Source: a virus. From it: a DNA stretch of 54,994 nt. The DNA is taken from positions 1-54,994 of the IMG/VR virus record IMGVR_UViG_3300047352_000276, one strand, 5' to 3'. The notes below the pieces were generated by a model. It was not told where the DNA came from. It saw only the letters and a program-made list of their open reading frames with translations, and did not search any database. Numbering within the stretch: position 1 is the stretch's first letter; each line of letters starts with the position of its first letter. This document shows, one piece after another, positions 156 through 54,280 of this stretch. A program made the position numbers and the translations under genes.

Positions 156-549
156 TTATTACCCAGACCCGACAGTCCCACACTACAGAGTTTCAGTCAT
201 CGGCAATGTCGTGATCTGTGAGGCTGCTGTGCCAATAGACTCAAAGCCAGCACCCCACATAATGAGCATACTGATGGATGACTTCGGGTTCAGACCTATG
301 AAGATAACCAACATCACCTCATCGACTCAAGAGTACGGCAAGATTCGTCCGATCGATGAGCGTCTGCGGAAAGAATTCATTTTCCAAATGACCACCCAAC
401 ACAACATCTATTCAGTTGGCAGGTTCGCAACATGGCGACAGATCTTACTGGACGATGTAGTCGACGATGTAAAAGTTGTCGAAGAATTCATTCGGGGGAA
501 GTCTGACTATGCCCGATGGATGCACTCTCAGAAAGGAGAAAATCAATGA
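1..549 (+). CDS. FAD/NAD(P)-binding oxidoreductase-like protein, C-terminal part
   Basis: This frame is open from base 1 and is the continuation of the gene that begins at 54450. Joined over the contig break, the protein has 312 residues. This part gives the last 182 residues and has no nucleotide-binding motif of its own; the Rossmann motif is in the 54450 segment. An internal ATG at 40 is not the true start. The stop overlaps the ThyX start (ATGA at 546-549), so the two are translationally coupled. Because ThyX itself uses FAD, a shared nucleotide pathway is plausible, but the substrate cannot be read from the sequence. Confidence 0.85.
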   Translation: MANTSGPIISTIPMPVLMKIVGWDEIPDFPKQKIYTIRATIDQPDCDIYQTIYYPDPTVPHYRVSVIGNVVICEAAVPIDSKPAPHIMSILMDDFGFRPMKITNITSSTQEYGKIRPIDERLRKEFIFQMTTQHNIYSVGRFATWRQILLDDVVDDVKVVEEFIRGKSDYARWMHSQKGENQ

Positions 550-1193
550 AAGTGGAACTCGTAAATTATACCTCTGACGCTGTTGACCTGCTGTTGTTCA
601 CCAAGAACACAAGGCTGATGGACGACGAGGATGCCTATGGCAAAATCGCTGGATGGTCTGAAACAAAGAAGCAGGAGGAGCTAGACTACATGCTCCAAAC
701 AATCCGCTCATCTTGGGAATTCATTGACTACACATTCAACATTCGAGATGTCAGTCGTGGGTTCACCCATCAGTTCGTCCGGACTCGCCAAGCCTCATAC
801 GCCCAACAATCTCAACGAACAGTTGACATGTTTGGCTTCAGCTATTACACTCCAGAGCGCATTGAGCAAAACCACGAAGCTCTGGAAGAATATGACAAGG
901 CAATGGCTGACATAGCTGACGCATACCAAAGGCTCCGGAAGTTTGTCCCCGCAGAAGATGCACGTGGTGTCTTGCCGACTAACATCCACACCAACATCGT
1001 CGCGAAGTTTAACTTGCGCACACTGAGCGAGATGGCCAAGTCACGCCTCAGCCCACGAGCTCAAGGTGAATATCAACAGGTGTTCAAGCTGATGGTCAAG
1101 GCTGTTGTCGCGGTGCACCCATGGGCTGATCCTTTCTTGACCCCAACACAGTGGGCCGCACCATCAATGGGAAAGGCTCTGAACAAGCCATGA
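546..1193 (+). CDS. thyX: Flavin-dependent thymidylate synthase (ThyX)
   Basis: A 215-residue protein of the ThyX family, which makes dTMP from dUMP using FAD, NADPH and methylenetetrahydrofolate. The ThyX signature (RHRxxSxNxxSxR in classic members) is seen as R79-T-R81..S84....S89-R91, so the middle His of RHR is Thr here. Other family marks are H75-Q76 before the motif, R140-GVLP at 140-144, and R158, R167 and AQxE near 172-175. The start at 546 is chosen over the upstream in-frame ATG at 516 because an AAAGGAG site lies 8-15 bases before it and it overlaps the previous stop as ATGA. The usual role in lytic phages is boosting dTTP. The altered motif leaves a modified reaction possible. Confidence 0.9.
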   Translation: MKVELVNYTSDAVDLLLFTKNTRLMDDEDAYGKIAGWSETKKQEELDYMLQTIRSSWEFIDYTFNIRDVSRGFTHQFVRTRQASYAQQSQRTVDMFGFSYYTPERIEQNHEALEEYDKAMADIADAYQRLRKFVPAEDARGVLPTNIHTNIVAKFNLRTLSEMAKSRLSPRAQGEYQQVFKLMVKAVVAVHPWADPFLTPTQWAAPSMGKALNKP

Positions 1194-2580: not shown

Positions 2581-2873
2581 GCAGTCCTAAAGATCCATCA
2601 GACATTCTGCAAGAGATGGCAGAAACATTCCGAGAGCGGAATAAAGTCTACGGCGACAACTACAAGACCGTCGGAGAAGTGATGATCAGTTTGTTCCCCA
2701 ATGGGGTGCAGCTCAACACAGTCAGCGATTACAACAGCTGGCATCTGTTTGAGTTGATGATCGTCAAGATCACTAGGTTCGCAAACAGCAACCTGAAACA
2801 CAAAGACTCAATTCATGATGCAGCCGTTTATGCGGCCATGGTTGAATATCTCATCAAGGAGGAGAAACAGTGA
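2577..2873 (+). CDS. DUF1599/MazG-like small all-alpha protein
   Basis: A 98-residue protein starting at an ATGA overlap. The layout RNKVYGDNY ... VMISLFPNG ... KITRFAN ... KDSIHDAAVYAAMVEYL is the pattern of a phage all-alpha family near DUF1599, also called nucleotide-modification-associated domain 1, distantly related to MazG/dUTPase-like pyrophosphatases. The conserved Tyr-Gly-Asp and the Asp-x-x-His-Asp towards the end are likely active-site or metal ligands. In phages such domains accompany base-modification or nucleotide-pool genes. The family assignment is from memory of the motif and should be treated as probable only. Confidence 0.65.
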   Translation: MSSPKDPSDILQEMAETFRERNKVYGDNYKTVGEVMISLFPNGVQLNTVSDYNSWHLFELMIVKITRFANSNLKHKDSIHDAAVYAAMVEYLIKEEKQ

Positions 2874-3547
2874 GCAACATTTTAATCACAGGCACAGGCA
2901 AAGGCTTGGGCAAGGCAATGAAAGAAAAGCTGATCAGCCAAGGCCACAAAGTGATCAGCTTCAATCTTGAGGATGGCAGGGATGTCCGCAGTCCAGACAT
3001 TTCTGACGTCTGGCGTCAGAAAATTGACGTGTTGATAAACAATGCTGGCGTCAACATAATCGATTGGCTGGAAAACTTCGAGGAATCAGACTGGGACAAA
3101 GTCATGGACACCAACGCCAAAGGCATCTACATGATGACCAAGGCTTGCTTGCCAGGACTGATCAAAAGCAAAGGCACAGTCATCAACATCGTAAGCAATG
3201 CAGCCCACATGCCTATGACTTGTTCTTTGGCCTACAATGCGTCCAAAGGTGCTGCCCACATCATGACGTTGCAGATGGCCAGAGAGCTGACCAAGAAGCA
3301 TGGCATAACAGTTTTTGGGATAGCCCCTAACAAACTCTCTGGCACTGGCATGAGTGATGACATCGACAACCAAGTGGTTGCCACTCGTGGCTGGACCAAA
3401 GAGCATGCCCAGCAGTATCAACTCAATGGTCTGTTGACAGGCGAAGAAACGCCACCAGAAAGGCTGGCAGAATTTGTCGCTTTTTTACTTCAATCAAAAG
3501 ATCACCACAAGTACCTGACTGGGTGCATCCTTCCATATGGAGCCTGA
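2870..3547 (+). CDS. Short-chain dehydrogenase/reductase (SDR)
   Basis: A 225-residue Rossmann enzyme using NAD(P)H. It shows the glycine motif TGTGKGLG at 7-14, the NNAG motif at 57-60, N82, and the catalytic set S109, Y122-x-x-x-K126. Length is typical for classical SDRs. It starts at GTG 2870, overlapping the previous stop (GTGA) behind an AAGGAGGAG site. SDRs in phages usually act on sugars or small metabolites; the substrate here is unknown. The position between nucleotide-type genes and polymerase genes suggests a tailoring step on a nucleotide or sugar rather than host carbon metabolism. Confidence 0.88.
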   Translation: MSNILITGTGKGLGKAMKEKLISQGHKVISFNLEDGRDVRSPDISDVWRQKIDVLINNAGVNIIDWLENFEESDWDKVMDTNAKGIYMMTKACLPGLIKSKGTVINIVSNAAHMPMTCSLAYNASKGAAHIMTLQMARELTKKHGITVFGIAPNKLSGTGMSDDIDNQVVATRGWTKEHAQQYQLNGLLTGEETPPERLAEFVAFLLQSKDHHKYLTGCILPYGA

Positions 3548-3548
3548 A

Positions 3549-4028
3549 ATGAAATTCCAAATTGAACAAATAGCAATCGTCCCGAAAGATCCAATCGCAG
3601 CCAAGAAGCTGTTGTCAGAGATTGGGGCAACTGATTGGGCTGAAGATCACGTTGTCGCAACTGGCAATGTTTTCGGCGTTCGCGACACCAACGAAGCTGA
3701 CTTGTCTTTCAACTATGACCTGTTCTCCGGCAAAGAGTTTGAAGTTTTGGATTATACTTCTGGCCCCAACTGGATTGATTCAAGAGGATCAAGGAACACA
3801 GTCAGCCACCTAGGGATGCATTGCAGTGCAGAAGATCTTGTGCATTGGCGAGCGTTCTTCGCAAACCGTGACATCGAAGTGGCGCAAGAAGTTTTCACCG
3901 ACTCCCACACCAATCCCGTGATTGCAGGAAAACGATCTTACAATTACGTCATATTCGACACGAAGAACATACTGGGCGTTGACCTCAAATTCATCGTTAG
4001 GATAAATAAAGATGCTGATAGTCTTTGA
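3549..4028 (+). CDS. VOC (glyoxalase/dioxygenase fold)-like protein
   Basis: A 159-residue protein with two similar halves: an N-terminal beta strand QIEQIAIV followed by a helix (DPIAAKKLLSEIGA), then a second unit beginning VSHLGMHC and helix AEDLVHWRAFF, ending in NYVIFDT and VDLKFIV. This is the vicinal-oxygen-chelate layout. Candidate metal ligands are H93 or H96 in SHLGMH and a Glu/Asp in the last strand, but the usual His at the first strand is absent (QIAIV), so activity is uncertain. ATG 3549 is preferred to 3537 because GGAG lies six bases before it. It overlaps the exonuclease by 17 bases. Confidence 0.6.
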   Translation: MKFQIEQIAIVPKDPIAAKKLLSEIGATDWAEDHVVATGNVFGVRDTNEADLSFNYDLFSGKEFEVLDYTSGPNWIDSRGSRNTVSHLGMHCSAEDLVHWRAFFANRDIEVAQEVFTDSHTNPVIAGKRSYNYVIFDTKNILGVDLKFIVRINKDADSL

Positions 4029-4548
4029 TCTAGAAACCACAGGTCTGCCCAAAGCGGAAGGTTCTGATCTTGACATGCAGCCCAAGATTATTGAATTCGG
4101 TGCGATCAAGCTTACTGAAGAGCTCATTGAGGTTGATCGCCTTGAATTCTTTTGCAACCCCAAGCACATGCTCGATCCAAAGATCACCAAGATCACAGGC
4201 ATAACAGACGACATGCTCAAAGACCAAAAGCCATTCATCGCACACCTCGACAGATTGAATGAATTCTTTTTGGGAACCAAGCGGATGTTTGCCCACAATC
4301 TTGGCTTCGACAGAAAGATCTTGAAATTTGAGCTTGAGAGGCTAGACAAGGTCACAAGCTTCCCTTGGCCTTATGAGCACACCTGCACAGTTGAGGTTGG
4401 CCAGCGAGTCTGGGGTAAGATGCGCAAGCTGGGCGACATATATGAAGAGCTCTTCGAAGAGAAGATAGAAGGCTCTCACAGGTCAATGAATGATGTTGAA
4501 GCAACGCTCCGGATCATTGATTGGTACGCAAAGGAAGGACACATATAA
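4012..4548 (+). CDS. DnaQ-like 3'-5' exonuclease (DEDDh)
   Basis: A 178-residue exonuclease of the polymerase III epsilon type. Exo I is FDLETTG with D6 and E8; exo II is HNLGFD with D100; exo III is H156...D161 (DEDDh subclass). It lies directly before, with no spacer, the DnaE-type polymerase, so it very likely serves as its proofreading subunit, as epsilon does for alpha in bacteria. There is no clamp-binding pentapeptide that I can call with certainty. Start overlaps the previous gene by 17 bases. Confidence 0.92.
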   Translation: MLIVFDLETTGLPKAEGSDLDMQPKIIEFGAIKLTEELIEVDRLEFFCNPKHMLDPKITKITGITDDMLKDQKPFIAHLDRLNEFFLGTKRMFAHNLGFDRKILKFELERLDKVTSFPWPYEHTCTVEVGQRVWGKMRKLGDIYEELFEEKIEGSHRSMNDVEATLRIIDWYAKEGHI

Positions 4549-7362
4549 ATGTTGAACCTCAAGACACGCACAGAGTATTCGTTCCGCAAGGCATACGGCC
4601 CCATACAAAAGGTTGTTGAGTGTTTTGAAGACAAGGCTGTTGGAATATGCGACACAGGAACATGGGGCCACGTCGCATTCTCCAAGCACTGCAAAAAGTC
4701 TGGCATCAAGCCTGTGTTTGGTGTTGAGATATCTGTGGTCTTAGATGCCAATGACCGTTCCAAACAAGCCGACAATCCGATGTCATTTCTGGCTTGCAAC
4801 AATGATGGGTTGGCTGAGATATATGAGCTTGTGTCCCGCAGCACATCCAAAGAGAATTTCTACTATTATCCCCGCATAAGCTATTCAGACCTGTTCGATG
4901 TCAGCGAAAACGTGATAATGTTGTCCGGATCGCACCCAGACTGGTCGATGCTTCCTTTGACCAAAAAACACAATCTTTACGTCGAGCTTGGACCAATGAG
5001 CTCTCCGAAGTCAGCTGAGTGGGCTGCTCAAAAAGGCTTCAAGACCATAGCCACCAGCGACAACTTTTATCCCAAGCCATCGGACAAAAAGGCTTACGAG
5101 GTTTTGTGTGGCCGTAACCGTACAGATCGCAGTGGGCCCATGCACATTCTTGATGAGTGGGAGTGGAAGGCTGCTGTGCCTTGGGGGACGCAAGAAGCCA
5201 TCGACAACACCTACAAAGTTGCAGAGCTTTGCAATGCTGATCTGCCAGTTGCGCAGATGATCGCATTTCATTCAAAAAAGACTTTGCGAGAGCTTTGCGA
5301 GGATGGTGCTCCGGCACTGGGCGTTGACCTGAAAGATCCAGTTTATGCGGCTAGGCTCAAGCGAGAGTTGGACATGATTGCCAGCAAGGAATTTGAGGAT
5401 TATTTCTTTGTGATTGCTGACATGATTCGTTACGCCAAAGAGCACATGCTGGTTGGCCCTGCTCGTGGATCTTCTGCTGGTTCTTTGGTTTGTTACCTCA
5501 CTGGCATAACTGACGTTGACCCGATTGTGCACGACCTGTTGTTCGAAAGATTCATCGACATCACCCGAGAAGATCTGCCGGACATCGACATCGACTTTCA
5601 AGATGACCGCAGAGAGATGGTTTTCCAATATCTCAGGGACAAGTACGGTGCAGAAAAAGTTGCACACCTCGGGACGGTCAGCCGCTACAAAGCCAAGAGC
5701 ACAATAGCAGAAGTGGCCAAAGAGCTTGGCATACCCGCATGGGAAGTCAATGACCTGAAAGGTGCGATCATCGAGCGCAGTGGTGGTGACTCTCGTGCTG
5801 CGTTCTGCATCCTCGACACATTCAACGACCTCGACATAGGCAAGGCTGTCTTGGAGAAATTCCCGCAGATGAAAGTTGCGGCAAAGATGGAGAACCACGC
5901 AAGACACGTTGGTGTGCATGCTGCTGGCATTCTGGTGACTGAAGACCCAGTCAGCAAATATTGCTCCGTCAGTGCGCAGACTGGTGCGGCCCAGATAGAC
6001 AAAAAAGACGCTGAAGACCTCAACCTGCTGAAGATTGATGCATTGGGCCTCAGAACACTCTCCGTCTTGCAGGACGTTTTGGATCAGGTTGGTTGGGTGC
6101 GAGACCAGCTGATCAAGTTTCCTCTGGAAGACAAAAAGGCATTCGCAATATTGAATGATGAGAAATATGCAGGCATATTCCAATTTGAAGGCTACGCGCT
6201 GCAAGGTGTGACCAGACAAATGAAAGTGCACAACTTTGAGGACGTTGCAGCCATCACTGCCCTAGCTCGTCCTGGACCACTCAACTCCGGTGGTACGAGC
6301 CAGTTTATCAAGCGGCACATAGGAGCAGCACCAGCGGAATATATGCACCCAATGACAGAGCCAATCACAAAGGTGACTCATGGTGTTGTGGTCTATCAAG
6401 AACAAGTCATGACCATTGGTCGGGAGATAGGCAAGCTGAGTTGGGAAGATGTTTCATTCCTGCGCAAAGCAATGAGCAAGTCTTATGGCAAAGAATATTT
6501 TGACACGTTCTGGGAGAAGTTCAAGGTTGGAGCTGCTGAGAACGGCATACCGGAAGACGTCGCGCAAACAATATGGGACAACATCAACACGATGGGATCT
6601 TGGGCGTTCAACCGCAGTCACGCAATATCTTACGGGATGGTGAGCTATTGGTGTTGTGTCTTGAAGAGCAGGTTCCCACTGGAGTATGCTGCTGCTTGCC
6701 TCCGTAATGTCAAGGATGACGACCAAGCTGTCAAGCTGTTGAGGGAAGTTGTGTCTGAGGGATTGACTTACAAGCCATTCGACAAATTCAAGTCCAAGGC
6801 CAACTGGTCAGTCCAAGACAATGAATTGATCGGTGGGTTGATAGGGATCAAAGGCATCGGCCCCAAAATGGCAGAAGACATAGAAAACAGGCGCAACCTG
6901 TCCCAACCATTGACCCCACGGCAAGAAACCCTGCTGAACACAGGCACGACACCCTATGACGATATTTTTGAGTGCGAAAGGAGATTTGGCCACATCAAGA
7001 AAGATCCCAAAGCCCACAACATCGGCTCAGCCATAACAGACATCCAAGACCTAGACGGGGACAATCCAGGAACATTCGTTTTCTTCGGCAAGCTCAAAGA
7101 GAAGAATTTGAGGGATATGAATGAAGCTGTCAACTTGGCCAAACGTGGTGGTCGCAGAGTTGATCGGAATAACCTTTGGTTGAACGTGACAGCTGAAGAT
7201 GACACTGGCGCAATCATATGCACAGTCGACAGGTTCAAGTACCAAAAGATGGGCAAGCCCATTGTGGAGGATGGAAAGCTGGGTGAATGGTACTTATTCA
7301 AAGGTGTGTTGAAGAATGGGTTCAGGAAGATCTATCTTGAAAAGGTTCGTAAGATGTTGTAA
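4549..7362 (+). CDS. dnaE: DNA polymerase III alpha subunit (DnaE family), replicative polymerase
   Basis: A 937-residue C-family polymerase, somewhat shorter than the ~1160 residues of E. coli DnaE. Order: PHP domain at 1-190 (degenerate, opening LKTRTEYSF where bacterial DnaE has the HxHxxYS type); palm with GPARGSSAGSLV near 305-316 and catalytic acids in PDIDIDF (D345, D347, D349) and D497 in KIDALGLRTL; fingers with VVYQEQVM and GSWAFNRSHA; helix-hairpin-helix GIKGIGPKMAEDI at about 766-778; and a C-terminal OB-fold from about 840. The tau-binding tail of bacterial alpha seems absent. A phage of this size with its own alpha plus epsilon is unusual; most short-tailed phages use family A polymerases. 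It starts one base after the exonuclease stop. Confidence 0.96.
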   Translation: MLNLKTRTEYSFRKAYGPIQKVVECFEDKAVGICDTGTWGHVAFSKHCKKSGIKPVFGVEISVVLDANDRSKQADNPMSFLACNNDGLAEIYELVSRSTSKENFYYYPRISYSDLFDVSENVIMLSGSHPDWSMLPLTKKHNLYVELGPMSSPKSAEWAAQKGFKTIATSDNFYPKPSDKKAYEVLCGRNRTDRSGPMHILDEWEWKAAVPWGTQEAIDNTYKVAELCNADLPVAQMIAFHSKKTLRELCEDGAPALGVDLKDPVYAARLKRELDMIASKEFEDYFFVIADMIRYAKEHMLVGPARGSSAGSLVCYLTGITDVDPIVHDLLFERFIDITREDLPDIDIDFQDDRREMVFQYLRDKYGAEKVAHLGTVSRYKAKSTIAEVAKELGIPAWEVNDLKGAIIERSGGDSRAAFCILDTFNDLDIGKAVLEKFPQMKVAAKMENHARHVGVHAAGILVTEDPVSKYCSVSAQTGAAQIDKKDAEDLNLLKIDALGLRTLSVLQDVLDQVGWVRDQLIKFPLEDKKAFAILNDEKYAGIFQFEGYALQGVTRQMKVHNFEDVAAITALARPGPLNSGGTSQFIKRHIGAAPAEYMHPMTEPITKVTHGVVVYQEQVMTIGREIGKLSWEDVSFLRKAMSKSYGKEYFDTFWEKFKVGAAENGIPEDVAQTIWDNINTMGSWAFNRSHAISYGMVSYWCCVLKSRFPLEYAAACLRNVKDDDQAVKLLREVVSEGLTYKPFDKFKSKANWSVQDNELIGGLIGIKGIGPKMAEDIENRRNLSQPLTPRQETLLNTGTTPYDDIFECERRFGHIKKDPKAHNIGSAITDIQDLDGDNPGTFVFFGKLKEKNLRDMNEAVNLAKRGGRRVDRNNLWLNVTAEDDTGAIICTVDRFKYQKMGKPIVEDGKLGEWYLFKGVLKNGFRKIYLEKVRKML

Positions 7363-10670: not shown

Positions 10671-11095
10671 TTGCGGAACTTTGCTTGTCGTTAGCTCTTT
10701 ATCACGAGGCTCGTGGAGAGCCACTCAACGGTCAAAGAGCTGTTGCTGAGGTCATAATGAATAGGGTTGAGTCTGATCGCTTCCCTGACACCATTTGTGG
10801 CGTTGTCATGCAACCTAATCAATTCAGCTTCGTCAGCCCCAATGGTTGGGCTGGAATTCCGACAGACGGTGACTTGTGGGCTGATGCAGAAATGTTCGCT
10901 CAAGATGCCATATTCAATCACAAGACTGGTGAGAAATATTGGGGTGGATATTATTACCACTACCATGCCACTAGCGTTTCGCCTGTTTGGGCTGAAGAGA
11001 TGTATCCTGCCATGACGATAGGGAACCATGTGTTCTATTCTGACAACCTAACCAAGCCAAAGAAAGTGAGGCCAAAATTACGACCATGGAAATAG
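10667..11095 (+). CDS. SleB-type cell wall hydrolase (Hydrolase_2)
   Basis: A 142-residue enzyme matching the SleB/CwlJ lytic family: LALYHEARGEP at 10-19 with catalytic Glu14, GQRAVAEVIMNRV, FPDTICGVV and NQFSF, followed by a Tyr-rich region ending in GNHVFY. The family cleaves peptidoglycan glycan strands. There is no signal peptide, so it would need the holin. It is encoded in the early/replication block, far from the late lysis genes, where a second peptidoglycan enzyme lies (23354-23806). It may instead act in entry or host-wall remodelling. GGAGGG precedes the start. Confidence 0.88.
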   Translation: MIAELCLSLALYHEARGEPLNGQRAVAEVIMNRVESDRFPDTICGVVMQPNQFSFVSPNGWAGIPTDGDLWADAEMFAQDAIFNHKTGEKYWGGYYYHYHATSVSPVWAEEMYPAMTIGNHVFYSDNLTKPKKVRPKLRPWK

Positions 11096-12774
11096 ACAAA
11101 GCTCATGGCAGGTTCTGCCTAGCCAAAGTCAAGCTAGATGGTGATGCTATCCAGAAATTGGCGGCATTGCCAGGATTCAAGAAGTGGGTTGGCAGGGACT
11201 TGTTGTTTGCGCCAACTGGAGCCAACATAAGCCACATCAACAAGCATTGGCCTAGGGCGGTGTGGTCGGAGGCTGCTTCGCCCATCCTAGACGATTATAT
11301 TGAGACAATGCATCAAGCTGAATTGACTCGCAAAGAAAAGGCTTCAGCTCCGAAAGATCTGGGTGACTTCCTTTTCAAAACCAAGCCATTCGATCACCAG
11401 CGCAAAGCATTTTACATGAGTCGGGACAAAGAGTCTTTCGCTTTGCTCATGGAGCAGGGCACAGGCAAAACCAAAGTCATAATCGACAATGCTGCGTATC
11501 TTTATGCTTCTGGTGAGATAACTGCGTTGGTCGTCATTGCGCCCAATGGGGTGCACCGCAACTGGCTCAACAAAGAGATCCCCGACCACATGCCAGAGTG
11601 GTGCAACCACTCGTCGGCATATTATTATTCGGGGATGAAGTCCAGAGACAAAACCAAGTTTGACGACATATTATCTGGGCAAGATGAACTGAAGATATTT
11701 TCATTCAATGTTGAGGCTTTTGTAAGCCAAACAGCTGTGGCATTGATGAACAAGATCCTCCTGAGCAACAAGGTTCTTTTGGTGGTGGACGAAAGCTCTC
11801 GGATCAAACGTCCAGGAGCCAAGCGCACCAAAACAATCCACAAGTTTGCCAAACAAGCCAAGTATCGCAGGATCATGACAGGCACACCAGTGACCAAAGG
11901 CCCAGAGGACGTGTACAGCCAATTCAGGTTTCTCGATCCTTATATCCTCGGGTACGACAGCTTTTATTCTTTCAGGGCAAGATATTGCGTCATGGGAGGC
12001 TACGAGAACAAACAGATCGTTTCTTATCAATATATGGACGAGCTGACCAAAAGCATTGAAGGCCACTCGTTCCGAGTTTTGAAAAAAGATTGCTTGGACT
12101 TGCCGGACAAAATATATCAACGTCACTTTGTTGATCTTTCGCCAAAGCAGCGCAAGTTGTATGATTCGCTGAAAAAAGACTTCGTGGTTGAGTTGGAAGG
12201 TGACGTAATAGACGCACAGGAGGCCATAACAAGGCTGCTACGACTGCAACAGATAGTTTGTGGGTGGTTTCCTGCCGAAGAGAAAGCAAGACCCATAGAC
12301 GACAAGAATCCTAGGCTTGAGGCTCTGAAGGATTTGCTGGGCAACATCGATGCCAAGGTGATAATCTGGGCACGCTTCCGAGCCGACATAGCGCAGATCG
12401 AACGGATGTTGGGCCATAAGGCTGTGAGCTACCATGGTGGCGTGTCGAATGACATGAGAGCCAAAGCTGTTGACAGCTTTCAGAATGATCCTAGTGTGCG
12501 TTACTTCATCGGCCAACCTCAATCGGGGGGGATTGGCTTGACGCTGACAGCTGCGTCTTATGCGATATATTATTCCAACAGCTTCGACTTGGAAACAAGG
12601 CTTCAGTCGGAAGACAGGTGCCACCGCATAGGCACAACCCAAAACGTAACATACATCGACATCGAGAGTCCCAAGACCATTGACTCAAAGATCATCAAAG
12701 CTCTGCGGGACAAAAAGAACCTAGCAGATGTTGTGACCAAAGATCCGATGTCTTTTTTCTTGTCGGAGGAGTGA
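11086..12774 (+). CDS. SNF2-family (SF2) helicase/ATPase
   Basis: A 562-residue protein with a ~90-residue N-terminal extension. SF2 motifs: DHQRKAF (Q-like, near 105), Walker A EQGTGKT at 123-129 with K128, motif II DESS at 235-238 in place of DEAH, motif III TGTP at 265-268, and motif VI QSEDRCHRIG at 507-516, where the Arg finger and HRIG are diagnostic of SNF2. Phage SNF2 proteins are thought to remodel protein-DNA complexes or help replication and recombination. Start overlaps the hydrolase gene by 10 bases. Confidence 0.93.
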   Translation: MEIDKAHGRFCLAKVKLDGDAIQKLAALPGFKKWVGRDLLFAPTGANISHINKHWPRAVWSEAASPILDDYIETMHQAELTRKEKASAPKDLGDFLFKTKPFDHQRKAFYMSRDKESFALLMEQGTGKTKVIIDNAAYLYASGEITALVVIAPNGVHRNWLNKEIPDHMPEWCNHSSAYYYSGMKSRDKTKFDDILSGQDELKIFSFNVEAFVSQTAVALMNKILLSNKVLLVVDESSRIKRPGAKRTKTIHKFAKQAKYRRIMTGTPVTKGPEDVYSQFRFLDPYILGYDSFYSFRARYCVMGGYENKQIVSYQYMDELTKSIEGHSFRVLKKDCLDLPDKIYQRHFVDLSPKQRKLYDSLKKDFVVELEGDVIDAQEAITRLLRLQQIVCGWFPAEEKARPIDDKNPRLEALKDLLGNIDAKVIIWARFRADIAQIERMLGHKAVSYHGGVSNDMRAKAVDSFQNDPSVRYFIGQPQSGGIGLTLTAASYAIYYSNSFDLETRLQSEDRCHRIGTTQNVTYIDIESPKTIDSKIIKALRDKKNLADVVTKDPMSFFLSEE

Positions 12775-12968
12775 TGCATCATGAAATTATGACTGTAGAT
12801 AAAACAACGGCGAACGTCAAAGAAGCCTTAAATGCAATCTACAGGGCGCAGCTAGAATTGCTTGATACAGGAGAATTTACTAATAAAACTCTTGACGAAG
12901 CCTTTAAGAATTTGACAGGCGGGAGGATTAAGCTGGAAAAATGGATCAAGGAGAATAATGATGAGTGA
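12774..12968 (+). CDS. Small helical hypothetical protein
   Basis: A 64-residue protein coupled to the SNF2 gene by TGATG, with GGAGGA upstream; a GTG three bases earlier is also possible. Residues 8-60 form two amphipathic helices (NVKEALNAIYRAQLELLD, KTLDEAFKNLTGGRIKLEKWI). Base composition is more A/T-rich than its neighbours. No family recognised. Confidence 0.65.
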   Translation: MHHEIMTVDKTTANVKEALNAIYRAQLELLDTGEFTNKTLDEAFKNLTGGRIKLEKWIKENNDE

Positions 12969-13371
12969 GAGCAGTTTCTGGGCATTGTTGCGGAACAACC
13001 TTCCATTGAAGATGTACCGTGTTGAGAACAGAGTCATGCGTGGCATGCCAGATGTTCATTATATTTTGGACGGCAAGTCTGGGTGGATAGAGCTGAAATA
13101 TATCGAAGACTGGGCCAAAAGAGGCAGGTTCACCAGCGGCCTGAGATCAAGTCAAACATTCTGGGCAGAACAACACATCATTGAAGGTGGCAAGAGTTGG
13201 TTCTTGTTCCGCATTGGCAGAGACTTCATGATATTGATTGATGGCCAGAAAGGCAAAAGGCTGCTAGAAAGACCCGCCAAGAAAGATGTTGTTGAAATGG
13301 CAACATGGCACAAGCAAGGCAACATGTCGTCTGAAGATTGGATTGAATTGGCCAATGTGATAGCTTGTTAG
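12961..13371 (+). CDS. VRR-NUC / PD-(D/E)xK nuclease
   Basis: A 136-residue nuclease of the restriction-endonuclease fold. The catalytic set is P30-D31 ... E44-L-K46 in GMPDVHYILDGKSGWIELK, followed by SSQTFWAEQH and a GGKSWFLFRIG strand, all typical of phage VRR-NUC proteins, which act as Holliday-junction or structure-specific nucleases. ATG 12961 is seven bases from AAGGAG; a neighbouring ATG at 12958 is closer. This is the last rightward gene; its stop overlaps the stop of the convergent gene in the four bases TTAG. Confidence 0.88.
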   Translation: MSESSFWALLRNNLPLKMYRVENRVMRGMPDVHYILDGKSGWIELKYIEDWAKRGRFTSGLRSSQTFWAEQHIIEGGKSWFLFRIGRDFMILIDGQKGKRLLERPAKKDVVEMATWHKQGNMSSEDWIELANVIAC

Positions 13372-48296: not shown

Positions 48297-48659
48297 ATGC
48301 CTAAAGTTTACGTCGTCAATCGTCCGAGAGAAAACAAGTTTGGGTGGACCCCTGACTTGAGTGATGCATCGCGTTATGGTGCATTGGAGATTGTGTTTGA
48401 GCCCGAGGACAAGCCACAATTTGTCCCAGGACCATCCATCCAAAAAGCTCGGAGGATAATGAAAGATTTCGGGTCAGAGGATTACATCCTGTGGCCAGGA
48501 GGTGGTGACCCTATTGCTGTGATGGTGTGCTGCATGATCGCATCAGAAATGTCACCAGTCGTGCGCATCCTACGTTGGGAGCGTAATTTTGAAGAGGGAG
48601 ACAGGGATCGCCGGAAAGGTTGGTACATGCCTGTTGCCCTCGAAATGAGAAAGGCTTAA
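48297..48659 (+). CDS. Hypothetical early protein
   Basis: A 120-residue protein with ATG 48297 after GAGAAAGGA; 23 upstream in-frame codons cover the promoter. PKVYVVNRPRENKFGWTPDLSDASRYGALEIVFEPEDKPQFVPGPSIQKARRIMKDFGSEDYILWPGGGDPIAVMVCCMIASEM resembles a compact alpha/beta protein with a conserved WPGGGDP turn. A family I recognise by pattern in marine phages, next to replication genes; function unknown. Confidence 0.7.
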   Translation: MPKVYVVNRPRENKFGWTPDLSDASRYGALEIVFEPEDKPQFVPGPSIQKARRIMKDFGSEDYILWPGGGDPIAVMVCCMIASEMSPVVRILRWERNFEEGDRDRRKGWYMPVALEMRKA

Positions 48660-48660
48660 C

Positions 48661-49251
48661 ATGAAAGAGCAAGTAGATCTGCTTGAGGACGTGGCACCTG
48701 CGTCCAATGAATTAGGTGCAATTTCTGACATGGCTCAAAAGATGTTCAACATTCAAGCTGAGTGTGAAAATCTGGAGATGCTGTTGAAGAATAGAAAGCT
48801 GGATCTAAAAGCAATCGCCGAACAAGACTTGCCTGATTTAATGCAAGAACTGAACATCAAGGAATTCACCCTGACCAATGGTGCCAAGGTGGAGATCAAA
48901 GATGTTATCACAGGCTCAGTCCCCAGTGCAGGTGCAATCGCACGTGCCAAAGGTGACACCCAAGACGAGCTGGCGATACGGCAACAACAATGCTTTGAAT
49001 GGTTGCGCGGCAATGGTGCTGGCGACTTAATCAAGAGCAATGTTGAGGTCCAGTTTGGGCGCAATGAAGATGACGAATGCAATGCCTTCACAGAAGAGCT
49101 GCGCGAACGTCAACTTTATTATAAGCGTGCAATTGGTGTCCATCCGTCCTCACTCAACAGCTTCATCAAAGAGCGTTTGAGCGAAGGCAAAGACATCCCC
49201 CTAGATCTGTTCAGAGTTTACACAGGTCGCACAGCCAACATCAGGAGATAA
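48661..49251 (+). CDS. Conserved phage replication-region protein
   Basis: A 196-residue protein with an N-terminal coiled coil (AECENLEMLLKNRKLDLKAIAEQDLPDLMQEL) and a globular C-terminal part ending GVHPSSLNSFIKERLSEGKDIPLDLFRVYTGRTA. The pattern ExxLKxxxxxLxxxxxxxLPdxMxELgixeFtLxnGxKvxi, with its C-terminal ...vHpsTLxxfIkExlxxgxxiPxdlFxvy, is widespread in phages beside SSB-like and helicase genes. Function unknown; protein-protein adaptor is likely. Confidence 0.72.
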   Translation: MKEQVDLLEDVAPASNELGAISDMAQKMFNIQAECENLEMLLKNRKLDLKAIAEQDLPDLMQELNIKEFTLTNGAKVEIKDVITGSVPSAGAIARAKGDTQDELAIRQQQCFEWLRGNGAGDLIKSNVEVQFGRNEDDECNAFTEELRERQLYYKRAIGVHPSSLNSFIKERLSEGKDIPLDLFRVYTGRTANIRR

Positions 49252-49255
49252 TCTT

Positions 49256-50059
49256 ATGGCGAAGAAAGAATTAGCGAAGAAAGAAGAAAGCAATGGTGTG
49301 TCCATGTCTGTAATGGATATGTGGCTTGAGGATGCAGGGTCAGCCAGCGAGGGAATGTCCAAAGACGACATGATGATCCCACGCCTGTCCATCCTGCAAC
49401 AAATGTCCCCGCAGATCAATAAGCGTGATGGCGCATATGTTGATGGGGCTGAAGCTGGCCATATCTATGACAATGTTGCCAACGAAGTCTATGATGGAGA
49501 AAGCGGGATCACAGTGGTTCCGATCAGTTATCGTCGCGCCCACATTGAGTGGAAAGCCGATCGTGGTGGGTTGGTTGCCGACCATGGCTCAGACAGCGCA
49601 TGCTTGGACAATTGCACTCGTGGCAGTCGCGGTGAATATCTCACCGACGAAGGCAATGAGATTGTTCCCACAGGCGAATATTTTGTGTATGTTGTTGAGG
49701 ACGAAGGGAACTATTCCCCAGCAATGCTCTCAATGAGCAAGTCTCAGCTGAAGCGTGCACGCCAATGGAACTCAATGATCAACCGTCTGCAGGTTCCCCA
49801 TCCACAAGGTGGAGGAGCAATCAATCCTGCGATGTTCTGGAACGCCTACACGCTGTCCACAGTCCCAGAAGAAAATGATCAAGGCTCTTGGTTTGGGTGG
49901 AGTGTGAAGATGAAGTTTGACGCTAAGTCTGGCGGCATCTTGGAGAACAACCCCAATGGTACTGAAATTTATTTGGCTGCACGTGACTTCAAGCAACAGG
50001 TCGCATCTGGTGCCCTGAAGCCAACAGGCCCAGTCAATGACAATGAGGTGCCATTCTAA
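49256..50059 (+). CDS. ssDNA-binding-like protein with SSB-type acidic tail
   Basis: A 267-residue protein. DMMIPRLSILQQMSPQ, SGITVVPISYRRAHIEWK, TGEYFVYVVEDEG, SPAMLSMSKSQLKRARQWNSMINRL and YTLSTVPEENDQGSWFGWSVKMKF give a beta-barrel-type pattern I know from phage replication regions. The chain ends in PVNDNEVPF: acidic residues then a terminal Pro-Phe, the docking tip of bacterial SSB (DDDIPF). It lies directly before the primase gene. ssDNA binding is an inference from tip and context. Confidence 0.65.
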   Translation: MAKKELAKKEESNGVSMSVMDMWLEDAGSASEGMSKDDMMIPRLSILQQMSPQINKRDGAYVDGAEAGHIYDNVANEVYDGESGITVVPISYRRAHIEWKADRGGLVADHGSDSACLDNCTRGSRGEYLTDEGNEIVPTGEYFVYVVEDEGNYSPAMLSMSKSQLKRARQWNSMINRLQVPHPQGGGAINPAMFWNAYTLSTVPEENDQGSWFGWSVKMKFDAKSGGILENNPNGTEIYLAARDFKQQVASGALKPTGPVNDNEVPF

Positions 50060-50078
50060 AACAACCCAGTGGGTTGTT
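50060..50078 (+). terminator. 8-bp hairpin after the SSB-like gene
   Basis: AACAACCC (50060-50067) and GGGTTGTT (50071-50078) pair around a 3-base loop, overlapping the stop codon. No U-tract follows on this strand. A second inverted repeat, GGCAATCTG (50080-50088) / CAGATTGCC (50126-50134), lies between it and the primase start. They may tune read-through or translation of the primase. Confidence 0.5.
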
Positions 50079-50155
50079 AGGCAATCTGTGCTTCAACGTG
50101 CTTTCCATCTTTTCATGTTGGGGTGCAGATTGCCGACGATTCAGAAAGGAACATC

Positions 50156-51688
50156 ATGCAACAAACAAAAAGATTCATGAAGTTGTTTCGTGGTTACGAA
50201 CACGCACATGGACAATATCGAGTTCAGAAGACAGAAGCAGACGGCAAAATGTCTGGCCGTGCACTGACCATCAGCGAGCCAGCCACCCAAGAGAATTTTG
50301 AGTCTCACCTGAATGGTGGCGACTACATCCTAGGCATCATCATGCTGCGAGAAAACAACTCTTGCAATTTTGGTGTGATCGACATTGACATCCGAGGTGA
50401 CGTAAAGCTCAACGAGAGTTTGGAGTCTCTGGAAGAAAAGATACGCTCCACCCCATTGGTGTTGTGCAGGTCAAAGTCTGGTGGCGCACATTTGTACTTG
50501 TTCTGCGAACCTGCCATAGCAGCCATTGACATGGTCGCCAAGCTCAACGAGTTTGCAGCTGGGCTAGGGTACGGTGGCGCTGAAGTTTTTCCCAAGCAAA
50601 TCAGCCGCGCAAACGAACGTGATCGTGGCAACTGGATCAACCTATGTTATTGGGATGGCGACAAGTCTGAGCGGCATGCAATCCATGAAGGCAAAAAGCT
50701 CAACCTGAAAAAGTTTTTAGATCTTGCGGAGAAGAAGCGCACCACCTATGAGGCTCTGGAAAACTTCAAGCCTGACCTGACGAACAAGTTTGAGGATGGG
50801 CCGCCATGCCTTCAACACATAATGACCATGGGCTTCCCAGAAGGTGGACGAAACATTTCTTTGTTCAATGTGGGCGTTTATTATCGCAAGAAGAACCCAG
50901 ACGATTGGCAAGAAGATCTGATGAGGTTCAATTACGAAAGCATGAGCGAACCCCTGCCCTCTGGTGAGGTCAATGGCCTGATCAAGTCTGTCAGCAAAAA
51001 AGACTATGCCTACACTTGCAAGCAATCTCCAATTTGCAACTATTGCGAGAAGTCCAAGTGCATGAAGCGAGAGTTTGGCATTGGTGGGATCGGTGGTGGT
51101 CAAGCCATAGAGATAGATGCCATCACGAAGTACGAAACTGAGAACAGACAATCCGTGCGATGGTACATCGAGATAGGTGGTGAGCGAATAGAAGTCACGA
51201 CCCAACAACTTTTGGACCAACGCCAACTGCAAAAGCTGTGTGTTGAAAAGCTCAACAAGTGTCCGAGCACAATGCCAGGACAGCGTTGGGAACAGCGCAT
51301 CAACGAGCTGTTGACCAGTGTTGAGGTGATCTTGGACCCAGACGATGCATCACCCCAAGGCCAATTTGAAAAGATGCTTGACAGCTTCCTGACTGGCAAA
51401 GTCCAAGCTCGCCAAAGAGACGAGATCATGAATGGCAAGCCATGGCACGACATTGACGATGGAAAGGTTTACTTCCGATCAGAAGACCTATTTATTTATC
51501 TTGAGGCTAGGAGGTTCAGATATCCATCCCAGCACCAAGTCTGGTCTTGGCTCAGGACTGTGGGTGGTGACCGCAAGGCATTCCGAATCAAATCTAAGCC
51601 AGTCAAGGTCTGGTCTGTTCCGGCTCCAGACTTCTATCAAGACGACGATGACTTGAATATTCCGAGTGGCGTGACAGAGGAGTTTTGA
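50156..51688 (+). CDS. AEP-type primase (archaeo-eukaryotic primase/PrimPol-like)
   Basis: A 510-residue protein. Catalytic core: FGVIDIDIRG with D76 and D78, then RSKSGGAHLYLF with the Ser-Gly-x-His motif (H112), and AEVFPKQ near 145. These are the DxD and sxH signatures of archaeo-eukaryotic primases. A zinc cluster C288, C294, C297, C302 (CKQSPICNYCEKSKC) follows, as in primase PriCT/zinc segments. The C-terminal 200 residues may bind DNA or helicase. ATG 50156 follows GAAAGGA. No helicase domain is fused, so unwinding must come from another protein. Confidence 0.85.
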   Translation: MQQTKRFMKLFRGYEHAHGQYRVQKTEADGKMSGRALTISEPATQENFESHLNGGDYILGIIMLRENNSCNFGVIDIDIRGDVKLNESLESLEEKIRSTPLVLCRSKSGGAHLYLFCEPAIAAIDMVAKLNEFAAGLGYGGAEVFPKQISRANERDRGNWINLCYWDGDKSERHAIHEGKKLNLKKFLDLAEKKRTTYEALENFKPDLTNKFEDGPPCLQHIMTMGFPEGGRNISLFNVGVYYRKKNPDDWQEDLMRFNYESMSEPLPSGEVNGLIKSVSKKDYAYTCKQSPICNYCEKSKCMKREFGIGGIGGGQAIEIDAITKYETENRQSVRWYIEIGGERIEVTTQQLLDQRQLQKLCVEKLNKCPSTMPGQRWEQRINELLTSVEVILDPDDASPQGQFEKMLDSFLTGKVQARQRDEIMNGKPWHDIDDGKVYFRSEDLFIYLEARRFRYPSQHQVWSWLRTVGGDRKAFRIKSKPVKVWSVPAPDFYQDDDDLNIPSGVTEEF

Positions 51689-51689
51689 A

Positions 51690-51836
51690 ATGATAAACCG
51701 TGATGAATATGAAAGAGTCTGCGAAGAAAATCGTGAGCTTAAAGAAAGGCTCGAAAAGATAACAAGAGAGCTGTTCGTGGTTTATTGCACAGCCAAGAAA
51801 GTTTTAGGGGGAGAAGATGCTGCTGGAAAAGAATAA
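51690..51836 (+). CDS. Small coiled-coil protein
   Basis: A 48-residue gene read from the bases: ATG 51690, stop TAA 51834-51836, with AGGAG upstream. RDEYERVCEENRELKERLEKITREL is a heptad coiled coil, then FVVYCTAKKVLGG. It overlaps the next gene by 20 bases. Possibly a small dimeric cofactor of replication; no family recognised. Confidence 0.65.
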   Translation: MINRDEYERVCEENRELKERLEKITRELFVVYCTAKKVLGGEDAAGKE

Positions 51837-52122
51837 GTTAGCCAAGGCCAAGTTTGCGGAGATCCTTGAAAGAAACCTGCAACCCAGACCAGAAGCATAC
51901 CATTATGCAGAGGCTGTTGTTTGTGATTTTTGCGGCCAATACACACGTGGCAAGATTTACAAGAAATGGAGCCTCCATGAACTCGCATTGCGCACAACAG
52001 TCGACTGCGATTCATGCTTCACAGAACTCTTTCAGAAAGGAATAGAATATCATGAGGAAAGTCCAGATCATCCTCGGACCTCCAGGAACGGGCAAAACAA
52101 CCAAGCTGCTGGGGATAGTTGA
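51817..52122 (+). CDS. Zinc-binding hypothetical protein
   Basis: A 101-residue protein; ATG 51817 has GGGGGAG five bases upstream. VCDFCGQYTRG and DCDSCF make a CxxC...CxxC zinc site with ~25 residues between the pairs. The last ~23 codons (from about 52052) overlap the helicase start in another frame, an unusual 71-base overlap. No function assigned. Confidence 0.6.
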   Translation: MLLEKNKLAKAKFAEILERNLQPRPEAYHYAEAVVCDFCGQYTRGKIYKKWSLHELALRTTVDCDSCFTELFQKGIEYHEESPDHPRTSRNGQNNQAAGDS

Positions 52123-53512
52123 GGACGCACTCAAGCGCGGCATTCCCCCAGAGCGCATTGCTTACTTAGCCTTCACTCGCAAAGCAGCCCACGAAGCTGC
52201 AGAGCGTGCAATGGATCAGTTTGGTTTCGATGAGAGCAGGTTCCCATATTTCCGGACACTTCATTCTTTGGCCTTCAAAGAACTAGGACTGCAACGAGAT
52301 GAAGTAATGACCAATAACCACTATCGCAAATTTGGCAAGGCAATGGGTGTTGAATTCAAAGGCATATATGATGAAGATCTTGGCATTCACACTGGTGATG
52401 GCTTGGGGGACAAATGTTCACGAGTTGAGTCTCTGGCTAGAGTTGGCCTACGCACAGTTGAACAACAACACCACATTTCCAAGATCAATGACCTGACCCT
52501 GCATGCGGTGCGACAATATGATTCTGCGTTGCGTGTTTATAAGCATGACAATGGATTGCTGGACTTCACTGACATGTTGGAGCAATATGAGTCCGCACTG
52601 CCAGTCGACATTTGCATCTTTGACGAGGCGCAAGACTTGAGCTCATTGCAATATCGAATGGCAATCTTAGCCAGCAGCCAAGCCTCAGAAGTTTACATAG
52701 CAGGGGACGACGACCAAGCCATCTTTGGCTGGGCAGGAGCAGACGTTGCCAAATTCCTGTCATTGAAAGGTGAGCGAGTCGTGCTGCCCCAAAGCTATCG
52801 CATCCCCAAAGCTGTGCACAACCTTGCGTTGGAAGTTGTCAGCCGCATCAAGAACAGATATGAAAAGCCATGGTCACCACGCCAACAGCAAGGTTCTGTC
52901 GAGTGGGTGGCTGACGAACAACAAGCTGACTTCTCTGGGCAGGGGACTTGGATGTGTCTCAGTCGCAGCAAGTATCTGCTCAACAGGTTCAAGCAATCCG
53001 CAAGGCAACAAGGCTATGCATACCTGTTGAACGGCAAGCACTCCTTGGACAATGAAGAAACCAAAGCAATCTTGAGTTGGCAAAGGCTGAAGTCAGGCAA
53101 GCACCTGACCGTGCATGAAGCCAAGAACATAATCAAGTTTTTCTCTTTCACAGTTGACCTGCCTAAGAAAGAGTCATATGATCTCAATGATCTGGGTCTG
53201 CCAGACGAGGCAAAGAATCTTGATTGGATGACAATGTTAAAAGGCATCGCCCCAGACGAGCGGGAATATCTCCGATCTTGCTTGCGCAATGGGGAGAAGT
53301 TTTCGAACAAGCCAAGAATATCAATCTCAACAATCCACCAGTCCAAAGGTGGTGAGGCTGACAATGTGGTCTTGACAACTGACATGGGTCGATTGAGTTG
53401 GGAGAATTCACACACCGACGAAGAGAATCGAGTGTGGTATGTGGCATTGACCAGAGCCAAAGAGAACTTGTTTGTCGTGCGTCCTCGCAATTTGATGCAC
53501 TATCAGCTATGA
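52052..53512 (+). CDS. SF1 (UvrD/Rep-type) DNA helicase
   Basis: A 486-residue SF1 helicase. Motifs: GPPGTGKTT at 9-17 with K15, motif Ia LAFTRKAAHEA, motif II DEAQD at 191-195, motif III GDDDQAIFGWAGA near 218-230, motif IV QSYR, motif V STIHQSKGGEADNVVL and motif VI VWYVALTRAKE. Shorter than UvrD (about 720), missing much of the 1B/2B domains. With no DnaB-type helicase seen in the window, this is the best candidate for fork unwinding. ATG 52052 follows AGAAAGGA. Confidence 0.93.
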   Translation: MRKVQIILGPPGTGKTTKLLGIVEDALKRGIPPERIAYLAFTRKAAHEAAERAMDQFGFDESRFPYFRTLHSLAFKELGLQRDEVMTNNHYRKFGKAMGVEFKGIYDEDLGIHTGDGLGDKCSRVESLARVGLRTVEQQHHISKINDLTLHAVRQYDSALRVYKHDNGLLDFTDMLEQYESALPVDICIFDEAQDLSSLQYRMAILASSQASEVYIAGDDDQAIFGWAGADVAKFLSLKGERVVLPQSYRIPKAVHNLALEVVSRIKNRYEKPWSPRQQQGSVEWVADEQQADFSGQGTWMCLSRSKYLLNRFKQSARQQGYAYLLNGKHSLDNEETKAILSWQRLKSGKHLTVHEAKNIIKFFSFTVDLPKKESYDLNDLGLPDEAKNLDWMTMLKGIAPDEREYLRSCLRNGEKFSNKPRISISTIHQSKGGEADNVVLTTDMGRLSWENSHTDEENRVWYVALTRAKENLFVVRPRNLMHYQL

Positions 53513-53569
53513 GTAAGCTCTTGGAAACATTGGGAGAAAAATTATTTTCATCAAAATTGAATTTTTTTG

Positions 53570-53598
53570 TTGCCTTCTCCTGCGACATCAGCGATACT
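53570..53598 (+). promoter_or_regulatory. Promoter P2 (TTGCCT-17-GATACT)
   Basis: TTGCCT at 53570-53575 and GATACT at 53593-53598, exactly 17 bases apart, preceded by GC. An A/T-rich upstream block from 53534 (GAGAAAAATTATTTT..TCAAAATTGAA) parallels P1, and AAACATTGGGA at 53525-53535 parallels P3. It drives 53627 onward, over the contig break, into thyX and the polymerase operon. Confidence 0.8.
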
Positions 53599-53626
53599 AC
53601 GATTGTCAACTGAGAAAGGAAATGAC

Positions 53627-54280
53627 ATGAACAACCCAACCTTCGCCCTCGACATCAAATCTCTCGTCGTCAAAGCCTACGTCAGCAGCAAAGTTGCACG
53701 GTCACAAGGCAACGGCGCGATCATCTTCACCTCTGCTGAAGAGCTGCTGGCTGACCGCAACATCACAGGCAAGATCCTTGTGGACGCTTTCAATGAAGTC
53801 TCCCTCAAGACTGTCAAAAAGTTTTCCGACAACAAGACTGCTGCTCGTCGTTACATGGCTGCGATTGGTGGCCTGCACGTCGACCCCACAGGTTGCTGGG
53901 ACACTGGCTGGGACGTGCCCACCTCCAAGCCAACCCCACAGGTCGCTGCACTCCCAGGAATGACACCACTCGGTCTCCCTGCAGACAAGTCAGCGCCAGC
54001 CATCAAAGGTGCTCTCTCCGAGATTGTCGTCACAACCACTGACATCACCCCACCAATGCCAACCAAGGCTCGCGGTGCATTCGCTGGCAAGACAATCCGC
54101 GTGATTGAGCTTGACAATCCTCGCAAGGAAGGCACTCGTGCCCACAAGACATATAGCCTTTACGTCTCTGGTGGCAGCTACGAAGATCTGGTTGCGAACG
54201 CTGCTGGCTGGAGCACCAAAGGTGGCGTCAGAGAAGATGTTGCCCATGACATTAAAAAAGGACGCATCGAGCTGATATGA
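53627..54280 (+). CDS. DNA-binding-like hypothetical protein with two domains
   Basis: A 217-residue protein. ATG 53627 follows GAGAAAGGA. Residues 1-90 (ALDIKSLVVKAYVSSKVARSQGNGAIIFTSAEELLADRNITGKILVDAFNEVS) may form a nucleoid-type or helical domain; a Pro/Thr-rich linker follows; residues 145-215 (GAFAGKTIRVIELDNPRKEGTRAHKTYSLYVSGGSYEDLVANAAG) recall small winged-helix-like domains found in proteins linked to transcription. First gene under P2, so well placed for a regulatory role. No family assignment is certain. Confidence 0.65.
   Translation: MNNPTFALDIKSLVVKAYVSSKVARSQGNGAIIFTSAEELLADRNITGKILVDAFNEVSLKTVKKFSDNKTAARRYMAAIGGLHVDPTGCWDTGWDVPTSKPTPQVAALPGMTPLGLPADKSAPAIKGALSEIVVTTTDITPPMPTKARGAFAGKTIRVIELDNPRKEGTRAHKTYSLYVSGGSYEDLVANAAGWSTKGGVREDVAHDIKKGRIELI

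Follow-up and report, generated by a model that had tools for sequence, protein, structure and literature searches.

A UvrD-like helicase encoded together with an SNF2 translocase and a PolA-type DNA polymerase with leucine at position 762 is an arrangement already published from virioplankton (PMC6302109). According to the accessible part of that paper, a UvrD-like neighbor accompanies 68% of the PolA sequences in the Leu762 group, always with SNF2, and neither an archaeo-eukaryotic primase (AEP) nor the gp34-like protein is named there for the Leu762 Group II module. The stretch of viral DNA analyzed in this study (54,994 nucleotides, positions 1 to 54,994 of IMG/VR record IMGVR_UViG_3300047352_000276; hereafter the window) carries a gene block on the + strand in which a gp33-like gene (48661..49251) is followed by a gp34-like protein (49256..50059), an AEP of the primase-polymerase (Prim-Pol) type (50156..51688), a small protein with two CxxC pairs (51817..52122), and a UvrD-like helicase of superfamily 1A (SF1A; 52052..53512). 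Its polymerase is a family C enzyme of the DnaE type (4549..7362, +; 937 aa), encoded next to a DnaQ-type exonuclease (4012..4548, +). We propose, with a probability of roughly 0.58, that the region encodes the helicase–primase–single-stranded DNA-binding protein (SSB) core of a DnaB-independent phage replication system, whose polymerase would be exchanged as a cassette and whose UvrD-like enzyme would likely be the fork motor. Such a core without DnaB is already widespread with PolA; in the window it is combined with a DnaE cassette.

The window shares the UvrD-like helicase and SNF2 with the Leu762 Group II module, as far as the available text of PMC6302109 describes it, and with the isolates Phage DSL-LC04 and 023Pt_psg01 and pelagiphages HTVC023P and HTVC027P. 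These four isolates also have the gp33–gp34–primase–helicase order of the window, and their records gave no DnaB or DnaG match; however, the Group II module contains PolA where the window, which lacks PolA, has DnaE–DnaQ. In Wifcevirus WFH and Pbunavirus SN, a DnaE cassette with Thy1 and DnaQ is colinear with that of the window, SNF2 and relatives of gp33 and gp34 are present, and no DnaB match was found. Their SF1 helicase is nevertheless Dda-like rather than UvrD-like, neither had a CAPP-like primase match, and WFH has a RepB-type primase instead. Since RepB is counted among the Prim-Pols (PMC10345425, accessible part), the combination of DnaE, an AEP-type primase, and an SF1 helicase without DnaB is, judging from these matches, already found in the known genus Wifcevirus. 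The window is a further combination, in which this type of DnaE cassette is joined to a CAPP-like primase and UvrD pair. A sequence-only reading of the window had called its replication set unusual, a description that was not supported as such given the widespread PolA version of the primase–UvrD block, the published Leu762 module, and the similar mix in WFH. Alternation of PolA and PolC (family C) within a phage lineage, as seen around the window core, has been described for Caudoviricetes (PMC11348598, accessible part). In the PolA/PolC genome pair of that report, a DnaB-like helicase and a DnaG-like primase moved with the polymerase, whereas here the helicase, primase, and gp34 are common across the exchange. 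Unlike phage replisomes of the DnaB/DnaG type, the window had no match to either of these two proteins.

Conservation of the block was assessed in a near set, consisting of the best 80 of 127 primase relatives retrieved from IMG/VR with a single-protein query, and in a distant set of 75 new loci among the 80 matches listed when an alignment of 13 divergent primases was used as the IMG/VR query. Where the locus left room, gp34 lay upstream of the primase in 64/66 near and 62/62 distant loci, gp33 upstream in 59/59 and 57/57, and the helicase downstream in 57/59 and 48/49. These are raw locus counts, with L064 and L093 representing the same contig and with genes abutting the primase scored as misses by the script; the misses L047, L055, L070, and L160 are of this kind. 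The same genes are carried by 12 annotated isolates, for which the lower script counts (gp33 5/9, gp34 7/11, helicase 10/12) are explained by the Acinetobacter/Providencia/Salmonella/Klebsiella group, where SNF2 lies behind the primase and gp34 and the helicase lie further downstream, and by L088, where the primase and helicase genes overlap. Among 29 whole records (the window, 16 IMG/VR records, and the 12 isolates), gp34 and UvrD were both present in 29/29 and SNF2 in 28/29. A thirtieth record outside this set, Cronobacter phage Ss1, had no gp34, UvrD, or SNF2 match. A replication set peculiar to this contig was therefore rejected, as the block recurs in isolates and IMG/VR contigs, usually with SNF2 and normally with PolA. 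The constant co-occurrence of DnaE, AEP primase, and SF1 helicase that the sequence-only reading had suggested looking for was found for the primase and helicase, together with gp34, but not for DnaE, which is confined to the window's clade and is replaced by PolA elsewhere.

The block was less complete in 75 loci from GTDB genomes, where the helicase was found in 47 and gp34 in 47; a large part of the remaining loci have a primase homologue but not the block. Those without nearby gp34 or helicase include L196, L222, L225, L231, L235, and L238, among other GTDB loci, on Mesorhizobium, Rhodospirillaceae, Neorhizobium, and Komagataeibacter contigs. A search of the primase against plasmids gave no match. 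gp34 and SNF2, with gp33 in three of four cases, also occurred with other helicase and primase types (Dda-like SF1, RepB, and a Prim-Pol with DUF5906) in L246 (YuA), L247 (WFH), L248 (SN), and L249 (Vibrio phage K292), so SNF2–gp33–gp34 may be an older unit. In L081 (MW202510.1, 13812-14663), the public annotation places a minus-strand gene over a plus-strand gp34 relative, and the gp34 gene is missed there.

Components of a DnaB-based fork were sought by six-frame profile searches of whole records, which detect sequence similarity only and were positive in 10 to 14 of 14 control genomes. The whole window record had no match to DnaB_C, DNAG_N, the beta clamp (DNA_pol3_beta_2), the clamp loader (DNA_pol3_delta2), or PolA, in agreement with the absence of DnaB, DnaG, clamp, and clamp loader first noted from the letters. 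The DnaB and DNAG_N profiles were each matched in 0/29 records. A DnaB, DnaG, clamp, or loader hidden in an unassigned open reading frame (ORF) was thus ruled out as far as such proteins are profile-recognizable; this includes the DnaB-like ATPase that would have overturned the sequence-only reading. The SSB profile PF00436 was also matched in 0/29 records, the window included, and gp34 as a classical SSB was rejected for want of this match. Of the 232 stop-to-stop segments that span 80 codons or more, two contained the Walker A pattern [AG]x4GK[ST]: the UvrD-like ORF and, on the minus strand, a long ORF in the structural half. The pattern is blind to deviating P-loops, including the one in the SNF2 ORF. 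Within the limits of these profile and Walker A scans, no AAA+ loader was recognized in the window, and no primase other than the AEP was recognized in the window ORFs scanned.

The polymerase encoded with this block was of two kinds. DnaE was found in 10/29 whole records and PolA above the cut-off in 17/29, including all 12 isolates, and never were both found in one record; G007 had neither, and G012 had only a weak PolA match. DnaE was present in 43/80 near and 2/75 distant loci (L095 and L096), PolA in 0/80 and 54/75, and the GTDB set had PolA in 36/75 and DnaE in 0/75; many loci without a polymerase end shortly after the primase. The nine DnaE rows of a 66-row primase tree formed one side of a branch with a Shimodaira–Hasegawa-like approximate likelihood ratio test (SH-aLRT) support of 98, and the tree implied one label change between DnaE and PolA, a number as low as in 0/500 shuffles. 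The PolA proteins of the relatives had leucine at position 762 in 45 of the 48 ORFs that matched the motif pattern (61 ORFs examined), which points to the Leu762 Group II of PMC6302109.

The mutual exclusivity of the two polymerases and a cassette shared with other phages suggest that the window's clade underwent a polymerase exchange in which Thy1, DnaQ, and DnaE moved together as one cassette. The direction would be toward DnaE, because gp34, the primase, and the helicase resemble those of PolA phages. The phrog_4828 gene that comes first in the cassette (40..549, +; relatives in L168, L247, and L248), Thy1 (thymidylate synthase complementing protein; 516..1193, +), DnaQ (PF00929, E value, 3e-27), and DnaE keep this order in Cronobacter phage Ss1, with 39, 53, 35, and 44% identity. 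Wifcevirus WFH has these four genes and relatives of the window's 2562, dehydrogenase, and 3537 genes (66, 48, and 54%), the short-chain dehydrogenase gene (2870..3547, +) being 47.5% identical to that of WFH. Relatives of SNF2 (11086..12774, +; profile matches), phrog_2165 (12958..13371, +; adjoining SNF2 and the polymerase in relatives too), gp33, and gp34 are also present in WFH, and Pbunavirus SN has most of these cassette genes. In an unrooted SNF2 tree, the window stood apart from Wifcevirus and Pbunavirus, but near the base. When aligned with Escherichia coli DnaE, the window DnaE kept the catalytic aspartate motifs and largely lacked the tau-binding C-terminus, and no motif similar to the E. 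coli clamp motif QADMF was aligned. A Q-x-x-L-L motif near residue 792 of the clade's full-length DnaE proteins was considered as a clamp-binding motif and judged structural, as it falls in a region aligned to the helix-hairpin-helix side. The shorter DnaE proteins of L049 and L067 (795 and 794 aa, as read from the ORFs) end in QSSLF and QSRLL, ends that we take to resemble the clamp-binding peptide.

The gp34-like protein matched PF23977 (Pam3_Gp34; E value, 2.4e-60) and phrog_2402, and tblastn matches to this family were found in 499 phage records, including Yuavirus, Pbunavirus, and Wifcevirus types. Its relatives are annotated as single-stranded DNA-binding protein in one phage record and as ATP-binding protein in others, and a sequence search of the PDB gave no match. 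The predicted structure (predicted local distance difference test score, pLDDT, 91.9) was aligned by VIA-align with the oligonucleotide/oligosaccharide-binding (OB) domains of BRCA2 (Z 6.3, 115 residues aligned) and with RB69 gp32 (Z 5.8, 150 aligned), and 38 of the 50 VIA rows are, by title, SSB, RPA, PriB, BRCA2, HIN, or telomere single-stranded DNA (ssDNA)-binding chains. We propose that gp34 is an OB-like ssDNA-binding protein, because this list from the model is consistent, the protein has an SSB-type tip, and it occurs in all 29 records, none of which matched PF00436.

The primase ORF (50123-51688, opening with GTG at 50123) matched phrog_21866 “primase” (E value, 1.9e-98) and PF22548 AEP-TOTE (E value, 1.7e-8; positions 56-143 of 230). 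The gene probably begins at the in-frame ATG 50156, since homologues start near there, giving a product of 510 aa. Its model (pLDDT 87.2) shows the Prim-Pol fold of Marinitoga CAPP, with Z 20.1 over 190 aligned residues for 7nqf and Z 19.9 over 186 for 7p9j, a primer-initiation complex. The Foldseek match had an E value of 5.4e-10 and the profile match to CAPP one of 3e-15; in a PDB search with the single primase sequence, CAPP was also the best match (E value, 0.073). The three Prim-Pol motifs shared with CAPP were defined after the accessible part of PMC10345425, the motif III residue being our own alignment reading, and D75, D77, S107, H111, and E142 (numbered from the codon at 50159) were invariant in 70/70 primases, including the DxD and SxH motifs recognized earlier from the letters. 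CAPP is CRISPR-associated, whereas the window primase stands in a phage replication context and has extra PriCT-1-like four-cysteine and winged-helix-like domains. The four cysteines of the middle domain were invariant in 70/70 primases, and PriCT_1 was matched in 31/34 members at E <= 10 (best 9e-7; the window's own value, 0.002, was below the cut-off). PriL PF04104 matched the middle domain in 2/34 members with a best E value of 0.028, near chance, and a profile of the PriCT-like domain gave no match in the PDB. No PriL or PriX chain was among the VIA rows for the middle domain, rows that cover mainly residues 1-205 and 394-492. It has been argued that PriCT domains are related to the iron–sulfur part of PriL (PMC5862659, accessible part), a kinship that the four-cysteine domain, as a sequence pattern, fits. 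Toward its C-terminus, the primase looks similar to winged-helix domains, with Z 7.9 for a relaxosome protein.

The helicase (486 aa; PF00580 E value, 3.9e-26) has the SF1 motifs, and its best matches among solved structures were Rep (E value, 1.5e-12), PcrA (1.8e-12), and also UvrD; from this similarity we infer a 3'-5' polarity. In an alignment with E. coli Rep, the main SF1 motifs were kept, but long gaps covered the region that would correspond to 2B, most of which is missing from the alignment. Removal of 2B activates Rep in vitro, and a reduced 2B might for this reason suit a lead motor. The small protein encoded between the primase and the helicase had no significant family match in Pfam and phrog profile searches, and its homologues occur in only part of the clade. 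Together, profile matches and the CxxC pairs upheld the four ORFs and their assignment as SSB-like protein, AEP primase, zinc protein, and UvrD-type helicase, as well as DnaE and DnaQ. The earlier observation is thus confirmed, and the reading built on it is partly supported.

An acidic tip ending in Phe is common to the window primase and to gp34, whose C-terminus NDNEVPF bears out the Pro-Phe tip described in the sequence-only reading. Phe was the last residue in 151/166 primases and 86/160 gp34 proteins, and a further 63/160 gp34 proteins ended in Met, often as DDVM. After close relatives were thinned, the two Phe fractions were 28/34 and 40/63; these counts describe related sequences, not independent events. 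A terminal Phe was rare in the helicase (1/143), gp33 (0/149), gp32 (0/84), DnaE (1/23), DnaQ (1/44), PolA (0/53), SNF2 (0/59), TerL (0/47), portal (0/35), and Thy1 (0/43) proteins. The PNKP-like protein, encoded in the window by a PNKP-phosphatase-like gene of the + strand run between Thy1 and the dehydrogenase gene (1934-2392), was an exception, with a terminal Phe in 24/42. The gp33 C-terminus is basic, and gp33 and the polymerases are candidates for the tip partner. In T7, acidic tails with a terminal Phe are found on the SSB and on the helicase–primase.

In the replication system proposed here, gp34 would coat ssDNA, as suggested by its OB-like model and SSB-type tip, and the AEP would make primers at its CAPP-like Prim-Pol site, where the motifs are conserved. 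In line with a proposal made for PriL-type domains, the four-cysteine domain may be where the initiating nucleotide is bound. The UvrD-like enzyme, the only helicase-type motor found in the window besides the SNF2 translocase, would probably move 3'-5' on the leading-strand template and unwind the fork; SNF2 may strip off bound proteins, and DnaE with DnaQ would extend the primers. The same core would work with PolA in related phages and with the DnaE cassette in the window's clade, and the tips on gp34 and the primase suggest docking onto a common partner. A survey cited in the accessible part of PMC6302109, in which no virus genome with a polymerase lacked a replicative helicase, counts for this proposal. 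Its most detailed form is tentative and rather doubtful as a whole: a polymerase-agnostic core that would be a complete fork machine, into which either PolA or DnaE could be plugged. In it, gp34 would serve as SSB, the CAPP-like primase would contain a four-cysteine domain akin to PriL, and the SF1A helicase, non-hexameric, 3'-5', and with a reduced 2B, would lead the fork on double-stranded phage DNA alongside SNF2, while the tips would dock gp34 and the primase onto a common partner.

Several points weigh against a DnaB-independent core led by the UvrD-like enzyme. Clamp or clamp-loader matches occur in some PolA relatives: PF02767 (clamp) had one match in the 29 records, in the PolA phage G013, and PF13177 was matched in three Nanhaivirus-type records, two of them annotated with PolIII-type genes, so that clamp-type parts are present in some of the PolA phages. 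Weak processivity of UvrD is cited in PMC6302109 (accessible part). The branch support in the primase tree comes from a quick search, and several branches are long. For gp34, there was no Foldseek match at E <= 0.001, and the VIA Z values reach 6.3 at best, all being under 8, the level trusted by the tool; moreover, another gene is annotated as ssDNA-binding in some gp34-bearing genomes (L083 and L249), so gp34 may not be the SSB.

Use of the host DnaB is another possibility. The host enzyme would then unwind the fork, the phage would provide the polymerase, primase, and ssDNA-binding protein, and the UvrD-like helicase and SNF2 would be accessory, acting in protein removal, recombination, or fork restart. 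UvrD, Rep, and PcrA are indeed accessory helicases in bacteria, and many phages recruit the host DnaB. We consider this unlikely, as the helicase is kept in 29/29 records and stands beside the primase in IMG/VR loci with room, the six-frame profiles found no DnaG-type primase that would dock on DnaB, and the limited scan recognized no AAA+ loader in the window. It is less probable still that the polymerase itself displaces the strand with UvrD and SNF2 only assisting, as suggested for SNF2-associated PolA phages in the accessible part of PMC9069017, which reports displacement by some viral PolA enzymes, including 2/5 primer-extending Leu762 ones. The window's clade has an unrelated polymerase family yet keeps the helicase and SNF2, which a strand-displacing PolA would not explain. 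Roles of the AEP, UvrD, and gp34 proteins in recombination, repair, or host conflict instead of genome replication are brought to mind by the Pfam match named for TOTE conflict systems and by CRISPR-associated Prim-Pols as the closest structures. Such roles appear very improbable to us, given a polymerase in the same record in 27/29, a block that is constant over distant phages, and the lack of another recognized primase in the window ORFs scanned.

The proposed DnaB-independent core would offer a natural experiment on replisome modularity, in which two unrelated polymerase families are combined with a common helicase, primase, and presumed ssDNA-binding protein, and contacts coupling helicase, primase, and polymerase could be sought by comparing the PolA and DnaE versions. 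Should the SF1A enzyme indeed be the lead motor, the phage would have a replication fork that does without a hexameric helicase. The proposal also gives a possible function to the gp34 family, one of unknown function. In the literature searched, mostly without subscription papers, we found neither the combination of DnaE with a CAPP-like primase and UvrD nor an exchange of PolA and DnaE around the shared core described. We likewise found no mention there of gp34 acting as an SSB, of a PriCT-1 domain with four cysteines, or of gp34 and the primase both ending in acidic-Phe tips.

The ends of the window (left copy 1..155, right copy 54840-54994) overlap by 155 bp with 3 mismatches, which makes it probable that the window is a whole phage genome, some 54.84 kb in size. 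A megablast search of positions 1-25000 against phages gave no match. The replication genes form a single + strand run that begins at 48.2 kb, passes across the contig ends, and reaches 13.4 kb; this contiguity, the SNF2 ORF, and the gp32- and gp33-like genes had gone unmentioned in the earlier reading. The run includes a gp32-like gene (PF23992, E value, 5.3e-18; 48297..48659, +), which is also upstream of gp33 in relatives and whose probable start is an inner ATG of an ORF from 48228. The gp33-like gene was identified by profile matches (PF23984 DUF7307, phrog_2378; a family without assigned function), and a gene of no assigned function that follows the helicase (53567..54280, +) is present in many loci of the clade.

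The minus strand carries the structural half, with TerL (44399-45898) and an SU10-like portal (41968-44406). The product of 37861-38652 (minus) weakly matched PF18760 ART-PolyVal, the ADP-ribosyltransferase domain found in polyvalent proteins, at a score just under the cut-off (29.3 against 31.2 bits). PF24175 SU10_adaptor was matched by the proteins of both 27777-28403 and 30300-30980 (minus). A similar C-terminal domain (RVICxELxxQG ... KxDWSVLY) was present in the proteins encoded at 19594-20877 and 40409-41782 in the minus-strand structural region.

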